Shown: one piece after another, positions 8,104 through 14,574 of the stretch | How the letters are laid out: every line of letters starts with the position of its first letter | How positions within the stretch are numbered: position 1 is the stretch's first letter | From: Halanaerobium saccharolyticum | GTDB lineage: Bacteria; Bacillota; Halanaerobiia; Halanaerobiales; Halanaerobiaceae | Length of the DNA: 46,064 nucleotides | Direction of reading: 5' to 3' | Assembly (NCBI RefSeq): GCF_004362045.1 | Contig: NZ_SNWX01000025.1 | Coordinates: 1 to 46,064, forward strand | Notes under the pieces: generated by a model | What the model saw: the letters and a program-made list of their open reading frames with translations, nothing else | What the model was told of the DNA's origin: nothing | Database searches by the model: none | Made by a program: the position numbers and the translations under genes

Positions 8104-8982
8104 TTATTTATCATTAATAAACATTTTACAAAATTCATAAACTAAATCCGCATCAAACTGGCTTCCTGAACATTCTTTTAATTCTTTAAATGCCTGCTCA
8201 ACGCTTATAGCTTCAGTGTATGGCCTGGCATGAGTCATTACATCAAAAGAATCAACAATTGTAATTATTCTTGATAATAATGGGATTTCTTCTCCCATTA
8301 AACCCTCGGGGTAACCTCGGCCATCCCATCTTTCATGATGATATAATATATATTTTGCAATTGGAGAAAATTCAGTAATAGAATTAGCAATTTCATAACC
8401 TCTTTTACAATGCTGCTGCATTATACTCCATTCATTTTTATTTAATTTACCTGGTTTTTTTAAAATCTCTTCGGAAATAGATACTTTTCCAATGTCATGT
8501 AATTTAGCTAAAAGTGATAAATTAATAATTTCTTGATAGTCCAGATTTAAATATTCTCCAAATTTTTCTGATAATTGCTCAACTCTCATAACATGTTCTT
8601 TAGTTTCATTACTTTTTACATCGTAAATTATTATGTAATTATCTGCAAAAGCTTTGACTGTAATCTCAAATCATTCTTTCTGACTATTTTTTGATATATT
8701 GTGTAAACACTCCACTGAAAATTTATTCAAATCCCCAATAGTTAAGCTCTCTAACTTGCTTTTGATTTCTCTAACTTTATTATGGGACAATAAACCCAAA
8801 TTATTAAATTCTGATAAATAGTTTTGCCCGATCATTTCTTCGAAAGATTTATCAAAATTAATTTCTAAATAATCTTCCCATTCTCGATTAAATAATTTAA
8901 TTTTAAAATCTGCGTCTAATATTATTGCTTTATTGTTCATAATATCAATAAAAGATTTAATATCCAAAACTTTCCCCCCCAT
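8104..8982 (-). pseudogene. PAS/HD-GYP protein interrupted by an in-frame TGA
   Basis: Two open stretches, 8671-8982 and 8104-8589, lie in the same frame and are separated by one TGA at 8673-8671. The first encodes a PAS-like sensor (AIILDADFKIKLFNREWEDYL near the N terminus). The second encodes an HD-GYP c-di-GMP phosphodiesterase core: LLAKLHDIGKVSI, HHERWDGRGYPEGL, then FDVMTHARPY. Reading through the stop gives NSQKE-[stop]-FEITVKAFADNYIIIYD. PAS domains commonly carry Trp before such a strand (WFEI), so the stop is best explained as TGG to TGA. TGA ends other genes here (nagB, and the secreted protein at 32492). Restart at ATG 8589 would lose the first HD-GYP histidine (KEHVMRV). The start could be ATG 8982 or TTG 8967; the latter has a G-rich site 6 nt upstream. 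Confidence 0.85.
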
Positions 8983-9163: not shown

Positions 9164-9240
9164 TGGTGGGGTTAGGCGGATTTGAACCGCCGGCCTACAG
9201 ATTAGGAATCTGTTGCTCTATCCAGCTGAGCTATAACCCC
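9164..9240 (-). tRNA. tRNA-Arg (anticodon CCT)
   Basis: A 77-nt tRNA with encoded CCA. The acceptor GGGGTTA (from 9240) pairs with TAACCCC, with discriminator A. The anticodon stem-loop is ACAGA-TTCCTAA-TCTGT, giving CCT (reads AGG). The T-loop GTTCAAATC is present. A weak promoter may lie upstream: TTAAAA (9280-9275), 17 nt, TATGAT (9257-9252). Confidence 0.95.
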
Positions 9241-9431: not shown

Positions 9432-10391
9432 CTAAAATTTGCGTTCAACCTGAACTTCGATTAACTTTTTCAATTTCTTTTTCGCCTTATTATCCGGTAA
9501 TTGGACCAGATATTTTTTTACTCTACTAATAAAGAGATGAAGAATGTCCCGGCTTTCTTCCAGCACACCTGAACTTTTTACATCAGCAATAATCTCATTT
9601 ACTACTTTATCATTTAAAATAGTTTTATTGTATACCTCATATTTATTTTTATACTTATCCTTATTAAGAAGTAAAATCACAGGGAGAGTAATTACTCCTT
9701 CTTTTAAATCCTGAGCAAGTAATTTCCCGGTCTCTTTTTCATTACCTTCAAAATCAAGAAGATCATCCTGAATCTGAAAAGCCATCCCAATTTCTAAACC
9801 CAGTTTATATAAAATATTTAACCTTCTACCTCTTATTCCACTGACATAAGCCCCAAGATAACTGCTTAAAGCAAAAAGAAGAGCTGTTTTATGTCTTATC
9901 CTTCTATAATAATCTCTTATTCCAATCTGAAAATCGAATCGTTTTTCCGATTGTTCAATTTCTCCTTCACATAAAAGTCTTACATTTTTATTCATTTTTC
10001 GGAGAGTCTTTTTATCCAGATATTCAAAAAAGATATCAAAGGTTCGAGATAACAAAAAGTCACCAATAAAAACTGCCTCTTTTTTGCCAAATCTTTTTTG
10101 AGCAGTTTTCTTACCCCGCCTCAGAGCTGCATTATCTATAATATCATCATGGACCAGGGAAGCCATATGCAGCAGCTCAATTCCACTTCCCAGCTGCAGC
10201 AGTTTTTCTTTATCATAATCTCCAAAAGAAGCAGCAAGAAACATTAAAAAGGGCCGTAACTTCTTACCACCACCATTAATCAAATCTTCCACTGCTTGAT
10301 TAATTATTGGTCTTTTTGATTTCGTAATTTTAATAATATTTTCATTTAATTCCTTGCGTATTTTCTGATAGAGTTTATCTTCAATTAGCAA
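9432..10391 (-). CDS. hepT: polyprenyl diphosphate synthase (heptaprenyl-type)
   Basis: A trans-isoprenyl diphosphate synthase of about 319 aa that condenses IPP onto an allylic primer to make a quinone side chain. The first Asp-rich motif is LVHDDIIDNAALRRG (DDxxD, ~75) and the second is FQIQDDLLDFEGN (~200); KKLRPF and RFG are also present. TTG 10391 is chosen because AAGGTG lies 6 nt upstream; the frame overlaps the end of apbE by 11 nt, so translation is coupled. Being joined to an ApbE-type protein and divergent from ndh2 suggests it makes the (demethyl)menaquinone chain used by that dehydrogenase, like DmkB of Listeria. Chain length cannot be proven from sequence. The symbol is approximate. 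Confidence 0.88.
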   Translation of the reverse strand: MLIEDKLYQKIRKELNENIIKITKSKRPIINQAVEDLINGGGKKLRPFLMFLAASFGDYDKEKLLQLGSGIELLHMASLVHDDIIDNAALRRGKKTAQKRFGKKEAVFIGDFLLSRTFDIFFEYLDKKTLRKMNKNVRLLCEGEIEQSEKRFDFQIGIRDYYRRIRHKTALLFALSSYLGAYVSGIRGRRLNILYKLGLEIGMAFQIQDDLLDFEGNEKETGKLLAQDLKEGVITLPVILLLNKDKYKNKYEVYNKTILNDKVVNEIIADVKSSGVLEESRDILHLFISRVKKYLVQLPDNKAKKKLKKLIEVQVERKF

Positions 10392-11430
10392 AGCTTTCAC
10401 CTTCAATTATATTAAAATCAGAATCAGTAATCTCTATTATATCTTTTAAACCTGAAGAAAGATAAACATCCAACTTTTCTGTAATAAACATAACTTCAAC
10501 ATTTTCCAGAGACTCAATAAAGTTCATCCCTTTTTCCAGACCCATTACATAAACAGCTGTGGAAAGTGCATCAGCATCAAAAGAATTCTCACTAATAATA
10601 CTGGCACTTAAAAGATTATTTCGAGCTGGATAGCCAGTTTCAGGATTTATTATATGATGATAGAGCTTACCGTTTTCTTCAAAATATCTTTCATAATTAC
10701 CAGAAGTAACTATAGTTGAATCAACTGCATCAACAATAGCCATCACATTTCCTCTTCCCTCCCGGGGATCCTGAATTCCAATTTTCCAGGGAGAACCATC
10801 TACTTTATTACCAATTACCAGAACATTGCCACCGAGATTTACAAAAGCATGTTGAATCCCATGTTTCTGCACTACATCTTTAACCTCTTCGGCAGCATAT
10901 CCCTTGGCAATTCCTCCCAGATCAATTTTAACTCCTGGATTAGTAATTTTGGCTGAATTCTCGTACAGCTTTAAGTACTGATAGCCTGTATTTGATAAAG
11001 CTTTTTCAATTTCAGATTGAGTCGGAACGGCAGCATCTTCAGTTCCGATACCCCATAATTCAACTAGTGCTCCAATTGTTGGATCAAAACTACCATCAGT
11101 CATTTTAGCATATTCTAATGCTTTTTTTAAAACAGCCATGCTTGCTTGAGAAATCTGTATTTTTGTTTTGGGATTATGGTTCAATTCATAAATATCGCTG
11201 GATTTAATAGTTTTACTCATCAAATTTTCAATTTCTCTAATTCTTTCCATGCTTTCTTCAACTGCAACTTCTGCATTTTCTCCATGGGCCTGCATCTGAA
11301 CTAAAGTATCCATTAAAAACGCAGTATCTTTTGCCTGAGGCAATTCCTCTGCCTTATTTCCACAGGCGGTTAAAATCAATAAAAATACTGCAAGTATAGT
11401 AATCAGAATTAACTTTTTGTTCTTAAACAA
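10381..11430 (-). CDS. apbE: ApbE-family FAD:protein FMN transferase lipoprotein
   Basis: A membrane-anchored flavin transferase (349 aa) that attaches FMN to Thr/Ser of target proteins outside the membrane. The N terminus is a lipoprotein signal: a basic FKNKK, a hydrophobic core, and lipobox LTAC-G with Cys ~23. Family landmarks are FLMDTLVQMQAHG (~40), VKIDLGGIAKGYAAEEV (~170), HAFVNLGGNVLVIG, IINPETGYPARN (~260) and SFDADALSTAVYVMG (~285, the metal-binding D-A-x-S/T region). It overlaps the polyprenyl synthase start and is divergent from ndh2. In Listeria the homologous FmnB acts in extracellular electron transfer. Other ApbE proteins flavinylate Rnf or Nqr subunits, so the target remains open. 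Confidence 0.92.
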   Translation of the reverse strand: MFKNKKLILITILAVFLLILTACGNKAEELPQAKDTAFLMDTLVQMQAHGENAEVAVEESMERIREIENLMSKTIKSSDIYELNHNPKTKIQISQASMAVLKKALEYAKMTDGSFDPTIGALVELWGIGTEDAAVPTQSEIEKALSNTGYQYLKLYENSAKITNPGVKIDLGGIAKGYAAEEVKDVVQKHGIQHAFVNLGGNVLVIGNKVDGSPWKIGIQDPREGRGNVMAIVDAVDSTIVTSGNYERYFEENGKLYHHIINPETGYPARNNLLSASIISENSFDADALSTAVYVMGLEKGMNFIESLENVEVMFITEKLDVYLSSGLKDIIEITDSDFNIIEGESFAN

Positions 11431-11528
11431 ATTATCACTTCCTATTTGATAAAATTTATTCTACAACTAAATTAATTTTTACACAAAATAATAAAAAATA
11501 TCCTGAAAACCTCGGGTAAATCACTTAC

Positions 11529-11556
11529 ATTTTATCATAAATACTTGAAATTGCAA
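11529..11556 (-). promoter_or_regulatory. promoter for apbE-hepT
   Basis: On the minus strand TTGCAA (11556-11551), 16 nt, TAAAAT (11534-11529). The flanks, TTTGCAATTT and TTATGATAAAATG, mirror those of the ndh2 promoter on the other strand. Confidence 0.55.
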
Positions 11557-11584
11557 AAATAACCTGAGTATTTAACTAAGAAAT

Positions 11585-11612
11585 TTGCAATTTATTTATA
11601 TTATGCTATAAT
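11585..11612 (+). promoter_or_regulatory. extended -10 promoter for ndh2
   Basis: TTGCAA (11585-11590), 16 nt, then TGCTATAAT, a perfect -10 (11607-11612) with an extended TGn. The start codon is 133 nt further on. Confidence 0.7.
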
Positions 11613-11744
11613 GATAGTGTGAAAAAAATAACTCATGACTGTTATTTTAGTGTATGTGAATTTAAAAATTTAAGCTTAATAAATCGGTCATGACAGGATA
11701 AAGCTAATAAAAATAAGGGAAAATAAATTAAAGGAGGTAAAAAA

Positions 11745-13523
11745 TTGAGTAATAATATTATTATACTTGGAGCAGGTTATGGTGGAGTAGCTGCTGCTCA
11801 AACTCTACATAAAAAATTAAAAAAACACCCTGACTCTACAATTACTCTCATTGACAGGAATTCATATCATACCCTGTTAACAGAATTACATGAGGTGGCA
11901 GGTAATAGGATTGATGAAGATGCTCTCGAAATTGATTTAGAGAGAATTTTTTCTTCAACCAGGGTAAATGTAATTCAGGATGAGATTAATAATATCGATT
12001 TTGAAAATCAGATTTTAAGTTCTGAAGATCATCAATATACCTATGATTATTTAATTATGGGAGCCGGCAGCAAGCCGAGTCACTGTGGAGTTGAGGGTGT
12101 AGGGGAACATGCCTTTACTTTATGGTCGATGGATGATGCAAATAGTATCAAAAAACATGTTGAGAATTGTATGCAGGAAGCAAGAATCACTAATGATCCT
12201 GCTGAACGAAAGGAACTGCTATCCTTTGCAGTTGCCGGTGGAGGTTTTACCGGAGTTGAGATGGTTGGTGAGTTACTTGAATGGCTTGATGAATACAGCA
12301 AAGAATATAATATACCCCGAGATGAAATAGAAATTTATAACTTTGAAGGCCTTGATCAAATACTTCCAAATCTCAGTGATGAACTGGTAGAAAAAGCAAT
12401 GAATTATATGAGAGATAACGGAGTTAATATCAAAACAGGTGAATTTGTTGACAAAATAGAAGAAAATAAGTTAATCTTAAATGATGGAGTGGAAGTTGAT
12501 GCCCGGACTATTATCTGGACCTGTGGTGTACAGGCAGCTGACTTTGCTGCAAATTCTGGTCTGGCTACTGACCGTGCAAATCGGATAAAAGTAAATGAAT
12601 ATCTGCAGACAGAAGATTATTCCAATGTATATGCTATTGGTGATAATGCAGCGGCTCCCTGGAAAGATGATCAGATCTTACCTGCATTAGTCGAGTCTGC
12701 TCAGCAGACAGGAGAATGTGCAGCTAAAAATGTGGTAGCTGAAATTAAAGGTGGTTCTAAAGAAGAACTTGAACCAAACTTACATGGAGTAATGGTTTCA
12801 GTTGGAAGCAGCTATGCAGTTGCTGAAGTTATGGGCTTATCATTAACAGGAATTCCAGCTATGTTTATGAAACACTCTGTTAATATGTTCTACCGTTTTG
12901 AAATAGGTGGAATAAAAGAAACATACAGTATGATTACTGAATATATGAAAGAACAGGCTTCTCATAAAGGCTTACTGCCACAGCTGTTTGGCTTTGTCAG
13001 TGAGACTTCGAGATCACTCTGGTTAGTTCTTTTGCGTGTTTTTGTTGGAATTATGTGGCTTTATGAAGGCTATACTAAAGTAAGAGACGGCTGGTTATGG
13101 AGTCCAGATTATTTAGTCTCTGGAGCTTCAGCATCACCGATTGGTGACTATGCTGTTGGCTGGTATGTCTGGCTAAATGAAGCTATCATCTTTAAGTTTC
13201 CACTTTTCTTTCAAATTGTAGTAACTCTAAGTATGATAGGAATAGGTATTTCCTTAATCTTTGGTTTATTTGCAACACTGGGCGCCTTAGGTTCTGCTGG
13301 ATTTTCAGTTAACTTTTTACTGGCCGGCCAATATGCCCACTGGTCCAGTGACTATCCCGGACACTTTAGTCCTTTATTCTGGTTCCTCTTTGGCTCAATC
13401 GCTTTAATAGGTTCCGGACGTTCTTTCGGGCTCGATTATTATGTTCTACCGTGGCTTAAAAGCAAGATCTGGAGCAGACCGAAAGATAAGGATCAGGATC
13501 TGCAAAAAGTAGTTAAACAATAG
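11745..13523 (+). CDS. ndh2: type II NADH dehydrogenase with C-terminal membrane domain
   Basis: A 592-aa fusion. Residues ~1-400 are an NDH-2 flavoenzyme moving electrons from NADH to quinone: FAD site IIILGAGYGGVAAAQ, NADH site FAVAGGGFTGVEMVGEL (~160), and VYAIGDNAA (~297), the FAD-binding ATG/GD motif. Residues ~415-592 form four or five membrane segments resembling DoxX-like proteins (LLRVFVGIMWLYEGYTKV, SMIGIGISLIFGLFATLG, LFWFLFGSIALIGSG). Ordinary NDH-2 is ~400 aa and only peripherally bound. Ndh2 of the Listeria flavin-based extracellular electron transfer locus has this same extra membrane domain. The start is TTG with AAAGGAGG 7 nt upstream. A strong terminator follows. No terminal oxidase is seen, so export of electrons is a plausible role. 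Confidence 0.9.
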   Translation: MSNNIIILGAGYGGVAAAQTLHKKLKKHPDSTITLIDRNSYHTLLTELHEVAGNRIDEDALEIDLERIFSSTRVNVIQDEINNIDFENQILSSEDHQYTYDYLIMGAGSKPSHCGVEGVGEHAFTLWSMDDANSIKKHVENCMQEARITNDPAERKELLSFAVAGGGFTGVEMVGELLEWLDEYSKEYNIPRDEIEIYNFEGLDQILPNLSDELVEKAMNYMRDNGVNIKTGEFVDKIEENKLILNDGVEVDARTIIWTCGVQAADFAANSGLATDRANRIKVNEYLQTEDYSNVYAIGDNAAAPWKDDQILPALVESAQQTGECAAKNVVAEIKGGSKEELEPNLHGVMVSVGSSYAVAEVMGLSLTGIPAMFMKHSVNMFYRFEIGGIKETYSMITEYMKEQASHKGLLPQLFGFVSETSRSLWLVLLRVFVGIMWLYEGYTKVRDGWLWSPDYLVSGASASPIGDYAVGWYVWLNEAIIFKFPLFFQIVVTLSMIGIGISLIFGLFATLGALGSAGFSVNFLLAGQYAHWSSDYPGHFSPLFWFLFGSIALIGSGRSFGLDYYVLPWLKSKIWSRPKDKDQDLQKVVKQ

Positions 13524-13644: not shown

Positions 13645-14574
13645 CTAGAATAAATATTTTAAGCTAACCAAAAAGTAATCAATTCTATTTTTGGCTCCAT
13701 AATATATTTTTTTAAGTTTACCCTGATTATTTTGCAATCTACCTTCATTTTTTGCAGCAGCAAAGTAAAGACGATCCGAATTGTTTTTTCCTTTTGCAAA
13801 GCTGAAGGCATTATAAACATCTACAGTTTTAAAACCACTATTTTTGAGCAGCCTTAAGATAGTCTCAATTTTATAGCCCCGCTCACTGTGCGTTTCCTCA
13901 AAACAGGGCAGCTGGTCATTATCCGGACAGATTTTTAATTTAACCTGCCATAAATTCTCCTTTGATTTTACAAGATCTTCCCAGAAACACTCATAACTAT
14001 CTCCTTCAATTACAAATGACTTTTCCTCAATTGTTTTGATTCTACCAATTGAATTCATGTCAAAGATAAAAAGACCATCTTTGGTCAAGGAATCTGCAGC
14101 ACTCTCAAAACAATTCTTTAGTTGATCTATATCAGTCAAATAATTTAGGCTATCAAAGAATGATACTACTAGATCGAACTTGTTTTCAAAGGAAAAATCG
14201 GTCATATTTAGAGCCTTAAAGTTAATACTCAGCTGACGCTTTCCCTGCTCCAGCTGATAACTCATTTCATTTTCTTCAGTAAAAAAATAATTGAAGTCCT
14301 GAGAGTTCTTAATTTTAGTTTCTAATTTTTCTGCAGCCTTAGCCAGCATAGCTGAGGATAAATCCAGCGCAGTAATTCTATTGATAAACTGCAGTTCAAT
14401 CAACTTAAAGGTCATATTAGAGGTTCCAGAAGCCAGTTCCAGTACTGACTCTGGCTGATGTTTATAATATTTTAAAAGATCTTTTAAATATCTGGACCAG
14501 TATTGATAAGGTACATTTTTCATTACATCATCATAGATTTCAGCAAAATATGTGGTATAGCTGTGCTCCACCAT
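13645..14574 (-). CDS. class I SAM-dependent methyltransferase
   Basis: A 309-aa cytoplasmic methyltransferase of unknown substrate. The SAM-binding motif I reads VLELASGTSNMTF (~42), ALDLSSAMLAKA is motif II (~75), and DLVVSFFDSLNYLTD (~140) and GLFIFDMNS (~175) follow. The C-terminal ~60 residues are basic and unassigned. The start ATG lies 2 nt after the engB stop with AGGGG upstream, so it is the distal gene of a lon-engB-methyltransferase operon. Nothing in the context points to a specific target; small-molecule or ubiquinone/menaquinone-type methylation is only a guess. Confidence 0.82.
   Translation of the reverse strand: MVEHSYTTYFAEIYDDVMKNVPYQYWSRYLKDLLKYYKHQPESVLELASGTSNMTFKLIELQFINRITALDLSSAMLAKAAEKLETKIKNSQDFNYFFTEENEMSYQLEQGKRQLSINFKALNMTDFSFENKFDLVVSFFDSLNYLTDIDQLKNCFESAADSLTKDGLFIFDMNSIGRIKTIEEKSFVIEGDSYECFWEDLVKSKENLWQVKLKICPDNDQLPCFEETHSERGYKIETILRLLKNSGFKTVDVYNAFSFAKGKNNSDRLYFAAAKNEGRLQNNQGKLKKIYYGAKNRIDYFLVSLKYLF

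Follow-up and report, generated by a model that had tools for sequence, protein, structure and literature searches.

A three-gene group on a contig of Halanaerobium saccharolyticum, comprising genes for a type II NADH dehydrogenase (ndh2), a flavin transferase (apbE) and a polyprenyl diphosphate synthase (hepT), appears from its gene families to be the remainder of a flavin-based extracellular electron transfer (FLEET) locus. This locus has probably been pruned, its ApbE now acting on the Rnf complex and its Ndh2 reducing scavenged naphthoquinones. The stretch analyzed, henceforth the window, is the entire 46,064-nucleotide contig NZ_SNWX01000025.1 (C25) of a 3.36 Mb draft genome (79 contigs, 99.9% complete). 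In line with the initial annotation, which was made from the letters of the window only, the host belongs to a genus of halophilic fermenters; the closest named Ndh2 proteins are those of H. kushneri (92% identity) and H. saccharolyticum (91%).

All three open reading frames (ORFs) are found where they had initially been placed, and their families are confirmed by Pfam. A chance grouping can be ruled out because the arrangement is kept across the Halanaerobiales and recurs outside this order. Ndh2 was searched in 121 genomes, the host's and those of 120 relatives, and a match (E value of 1e-60 or better) was obtained in 39 of them, including all 12 of the genus. The order Lon-YsxC-methyltransferase / Ndh2 / ApbE-HepT is maintained in nearly every Halanaerobiales locus that was read far enough, and the divergent orientation of Ndh2 and ApbE-HepT is also encountered in other Bacillota and in spirochaetes. 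In total, 61 ApbE genes in the retrieved loci lie less than 6 kb from an Ndh2 gene. In the window, the 3' end of apbE and the start of the polyprenyl synthase gene overlap by 26 bases, and the 314-bp gap between ndh2 and apbE holds two divergent promoter-like sites, which are largely conserved in an alignment of nine Halanaerobium loci.

The first 390 residues of Ndh2 match bacterial NDH-2 structures, with template modelling (TM) scores, normalised to the target, of 0.92-0.93 (Caldalkalibacillus and S. aureus). E172, K376 and Q321, which together with position 317 we take to line the quinone pocket, are invariant or nearly so among 84 Ndh2 homologues. Position 317 is Glu in 80 of these 84 FLEET-type sequences, the window's included, and Gln in the Caldalkalibacillus NDH-2 and in the two Lactobacillales sequences displayed. 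The C-terminal membrane domain is homologous to that of typical FLEET enzymes: a profile of the tail built without Lactobacillales sequences matches the tails of the FLEET Ndh2 proteins of Ruoffia and Aerococcus (171 and 155 bits), compared here in place of Lmo2638, and the tail does not group with unrelated DoxX proteins. Its own DoxX match is weak (residues 427-522; 25.0 bits versus a Pfam cut-off of 23.6), and among its homologues DoxX is matched in 46 and DoxD in 28 of 55 domains. A structural model of the tail, with a predicted local distance difference test (pLDDT) score of 80, resembles TMEM35A (Z 9.6), GGCX (Z 6.0-8.6) and VKOR (Z 4-5), values that helical bundles can reach by chance; the likeness to the vitamin K-dependent carboxylase (GGCX) fold may thus be taken as a lead only, and a Foldseek search of the PDB with the C-terminal domain gave no match at E below 0.001. 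The ratio of nonsynonymous to synonymous substitution rates (dN/dS) between close species is 0.07-0.09 for Ndh2 and 0.06-0.13 for the tail alone, which shows strong purifying selection on the protein. HepT gives much the same values within the genus (0.09-0.10).

The nearest solved relative of ApbE is Listeria FmnB (236 bits), with the triad Ser257, His273 and Asp301 aligned and conserved. The best NCBIfam model for the polyprenyl synthase is HepT component II, at 266 bits below the cut-off of 457 bits and hence a family-level match. The earlier assignments to ApbE/FmnB and polyprenyl diphosphate synthase/DmkB are right at this level.

The surface carrier, on the other hand, is missing. The initial annotation reported pplA missing from the window; moreover, neither PplA nor any other secreted FMN_bind protein was found in the whole genome, RnfG being the sole FMN_bind match, which leaves the proposed electron chain with no flavinylated surface protein. 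The Pfam FMN_bind model does recognise PplA-like proteins where relatives have them. Such a protein, secreted and 223-234 residues long, often occupies the interval between Ndh2 and ApbE in other Halanaerobiales as well as in related orders and further afield; it usually has two FMN_bind domains, in most cases has two [ST]GAT-type flavinylation motifs, and distantly matches the NCBI PplA model. EetA and EetB are often found between ApbE and HepT in relatives. A PplA pseudogene in the 314-bp gap was considered and rejected, as tblastn with eight PplA-like proteins yielded short chance matches only (control 9e-167). In another Halanaerobium, G006, a TnpB-like fragment lies between Ndh2 and ApbE (L049:10905-11360) and an extra 482-aa ORF between RnfB and EetA (L153:8445-9893), which suggests insertions at both the Ndh2 and the rnf locus.

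Also eetA and eetB had correctly been reported as lacking from the window, but the genome encodes both on contig C23, immediately downstream of rnfCDGEAB (after rnfB), and the same rnf-EetA-EetB order is seen in other Halanaerobium. In Listeria, EetB exports flavin adenine dinucleotide (FAD), and in Clostridia eetB often colocalizes with rnf (PMC9973259). The ApbE of the window is the only one encoded in the genome. Given this single enzyme and a single visible target, RnfG, flavinylation of Rnf by the Ndh2-linked ApbE is the simplest reading of the organism's gene content. Two relatives, one from the same family and one from another family of the order, have the arrangement rnf-EetA-ApbE-EetB in addition to the ApbE of their Ndh2 locus, and thus encode two of these enzymes. 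In a quick tree, in which one rnf row sits on a long branch, the window ApbE groups with Ndh2-linked ApbE, while two Rnf-linked ApbE stand apart.

Other FMN_bind architectures were observed in some of the genomes. A second Rnf-like cluster, with RnfC followed by RnfD fused to several FMN_bind domains, occurs in the Halanaerobium genomes G003, G002 and G009 (L138, L142 and L143), the fusion in L142 being 840 aa long with four FMN_bind domains. Proteins of 577-590 aa combining FMN_bind and FAD_binding_2 adjoin EetA-EetB or EetA in G003 (L140:4606-7360) and G013 (L148:4940-7326) and, judged by their domains, look like flavinylated extracellular reductases. Two further proteins of 616-632 aa (L139:3538-5391 in G003 and L141:4262-6160 in G005) match Pfam only by a single FMN_bind domain at the N terminus, and each lies near an ORF beginning MKAKKLTGEKAAEYIE.

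Quinone supply was evaluated over the whole genome. Neither MenB nor MenD has a match over its cut-off, and MqnA/D and UbiD have no match. A MenB-like match on contig C1 is better explained as an enoyl-CoA hydratase, MenD-like matches fall far below cut-off and are probably other thiamine-diphosphate enzymes (~570-660 aa), and the methyltransferase at 13645-14574 of the window falls far below the UbiE/MenG cut-offs and was rejected as MenG. As for dmkA, its absence from the window had been noted correctly, and two MenA-like (dmkA-type) prenyltransferases are encoded elsewhere in the genome, both outside the Ndh2 locus; one of them, UbiA2 on contig C13, passes a curated MenA cut-off (343 versus 289 bits). 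The initial annotation had named a lack of quinone synthesis genes or of flavinylation targets as evidence against its proposal; the headgroup pathway is in fact gone and Rnf is the only visible target, while two MenA-like genes and HepT remain. Missing headgroup synthesis does not in itself exclude quinone use, because L. plantarum, a quinone auxotroph, has been shown experimentally to use exogenous 1,4-dihydroxy-2-naphthoic acid (DHNA) via Ndh2 (PMC9888254, PMC10746273).

A candidate for the uptake of a quinone precursor is found on contig C2 (270.3-273.8 kb; L146:9808-13306), where a MenA-like gene lies head to head with an ATP-binding cassette (ABC) importer consisting of an NMT1/SsuA-like binding protein, an ATPase and a permease. 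A profile was built from three binding proteins, that of the host genome and two following UbiD-MqnP-UbiX in other Halanaerobium. It detected six further binding proteins in 1.73 Mb of retrieved loci, each adjoining UbiX, MqnP, Ndh2 or ApbE when the importer genes are counted as one block. Eight other loci (L055, L058, L071, L084, L089, L114, L144 and L145) thus have a member of the family beside UbiD-MqnP-UbiX, Ndh2 or ApbE; the carriers include other Halanaerobium, Fervidicola ferrireducens and Sphaerochaeta. In F. ferrireducens, the genes for UbiD-MqnP-UbiX, binding protein, ATPase, permease and Ndh2 follow each other in one direction. MqnA/D is absent from the checked genomes having UbiD-MqnP and the importer (G003, G004 and G059). 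The scanned loci had been retrieved because of Ndh2, UbiA or UbiD. For quinone genes, 0-0.4 adjacencies per locus are expected by chance, so that a single case would not be remarkable; the association draws its strength from repetition. The importer's substrate is not assigned by any family model. Nor does RNA control point to one, as no thiamine pyrophosphate, flavin mononucleotide or other vitamin riboswitch was found near three Halanaerobium copies, that on C2 included. Papers from 2016 and 2017 (PMC4746308, PMC5738691) stated that menaquinone-precursor transporters should exist yet were undescribed, and none described afterwards was found in the literature searched. We tentatively suggest, as a possibility somewhat short of even chances, that FLEET carriers unable to make the headgroup take up a naphthoate precursor by way of this dedicated ABC importer. 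If so, it would be a candidate for the missing menaquinone-precursor uptake system, and quinone cross-feeding among anaerobes would become directly testable.

In the scheme that we favor, FAD exported by EetB would be used by ApbE to flavinylate RnfG (and RnfD), serving the Rnf ion pump; in the two relatives whose rnf operon contains an additional ApbE, this would probably be the task of that enzyme. Ndh2 would transfer electrons from NADH to a naphthoquinone not made by the cell, that is a scavenged headgroup such as DHNA, either in its free form or after a MenA-like enzyme has attached the HepT chain to it. The quinol would be re-oxidised by diffusible extracellular quinones or flavins, or by an unrecognised reductase. 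The outcome would be a limited outlet for NADH instead of mineral reduction through PplA, and electron export is expected to be weak or shuttle-dependent at most. Several points weigh against this scheme. Quinone use in the organism is a proposal from its genes, and no terminal acceptor was found in the genome. The substrate of the two MenA-like enzymes may be a different one, and UbiA1 (contig C2) falls far below the MenA cut-offs. Rnf flavinylation by the window's ApbE depends on one enzyme and one visible target. The congeners G002, G003, G005 and G009 carry further FMN_bind proteins, implying a wider extracellular electron transfer role in the genus. Finally, the genome is a draft of 79 contigs, whose gaps might in principle hide a missing gene.

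The initial annotation had envisaged a functional FLEET chain, in which Ndh2 hands electrons from NADH to a dedicated demethylmenaquinone, from where they reach flavinylated surface proteins and then minerals. Its kinship with the Listeria system stands, as illustrated by the Ndh2 tail and the FmnB triad. The genome does encode Ndh2, ApbE, HepT, EetA, EetB and MenA-like proteins, and this Ndh2 family also occurs in relatives whose names refer to metal reduction (Orenia metallireducens, F. ferrireducens and Geosporobacter ferrireducens). A working route from NADH to the surface is nevertheless improbable, as PplA, MenB, MenD, MqnA/D and UbiD are all lacking, RnfG is the only FMN_bind protein, EetAB is placed with rnf, and a Lactococcus lactis devoid of pplA shows little or no iron reduction (PMC8837199).

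The opposite view would have ApbE and EetAB act for Rnf only, with Ndh2 as a stand-alone NADH oxidase or diaphorase protecting against quinones or oxygen, and HepT serving some other prenylation. RnfG as the sole FMN_bind protein, the absent headgroup pathway and the lack of a detected terminal acceptor are all in line with it. We nonetheless regard it as rather unlikely: the fused membrane domain of Ndh2 is strongly constrained (dN/dS 0.06-0.13 between close species), the pocket residues are conserved, HepT remains linked to the locus throughout the order, and two MenA-like genes have been kept. A pruned locus, with ApbE serving Rnf and Ndh2 reducing scavenged naphthoquinones, is the interpretation we consider more likely.

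Features of the Ndh2 locus are compiled in the table below. A search of the region for structured RNAs and riboswitches returned only a tRNA at 9167-9240, and no Rex operator was found upstream of ndh2 with the pattern tried. At 8104-8982 of the window, a 161-aa ORF with an HD_5 domain is accompanied by a 103-aa ORF without Pfam match; the pair is possibly what is left of a broken sensor/phosphodiesterase gene.

Table. Features of the Ndh2 locus (window positions).
Feature	Position	Strand	Evidence
HepT/DmkB-like trans-polyprenyl diphosphate synthase	9432..10406	-	Pfam polyprenyl_synt 8e-64
ApbE flavin transferase lipoprotein (FmnB-like)	10381..11430	-	Pfam ApbE 3.5e-95, lipobox LTAC
Intergenic region (position of the PplA-like FMN protein gene in relatives)	11431..11744	.	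no remnant
Promoter-like TTGCAA-N16-TAAAAT for apbE-hepT	11529..11556	-	consensus match only
Promoter-like TTGCAA-N16-TATAAT for ndh2	11585..11612	+	consensus match only
Ndh2, type II NADH dehydrogenase fused to membrane domain, 592 aa	11745..13523	+	Pyr_redox_2 3.8e-41
Ndh2 residues 395-592, DoxX-like helical membrane domain	12927..13520	+	profile match to FLEET Ndh2

The locus would illustrate how a FLEET system is dismantled: Rnf shares or takes over the flavin transferase, the surface carrier disappears and the NADH dehydrogenase is retained. It also cautions against reading a capacity for mineral reduction from the joint presence of ndh2, apbE and a prenyl synthase gene.

The FLEET locus of Listeria and the Lactobacillales is made up of ndh2, dmkB, pplA, fmnB, dmkA, eetA, eetB and fmnA, and in Ruoffia and Aerococcus it reads Ndh2-HepT-PplA-ApbE-MenA with EetA and EetB nearby. 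The host has in common with these the Ndh2 membrane tail, an FmnB-type ApbE, a polyprenyl diphosphate synthase, a MenA-type prenyltransferase and EetA/EetB homologues. It differs in lacking PplA and headgroup synthesis, in having EetA-EetB behind rnf and MenA-like genes elsewhere, and in carrying Glu317 where the two Lactobacillales sequences displayed have Gln. FLEET genes minus the surface flavoprotein are likewise found in Lactococcus, which has all of them except pplA and of which the L. lactis tested reduced iron little or not at all (PMC8837199); L. lactis, however, makes its own quinones (PMC10746273), whereas the host lacks the headgroup genes and possesses an Rnf complex. With the Rnf-associated ApbE/EetB systems of Clostridia (PMC9973259), it shares EetA-EetB beside rnf, one ApbE and RnfG as probable flavin acceptor, but its ApbE belongs to the Ndh2-linked branch and is encoded in the Ndh2 locus instead of the rnf operon. 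Compared with the canonical NDH-2 of Caldalkalibacillus and S. aureus, finally, the fold of the NADH/FAD domain is the same, while the Halanaerobium enzyme has an extra membrane domain of ~190 residues and Glu in place of Gln at position 317.

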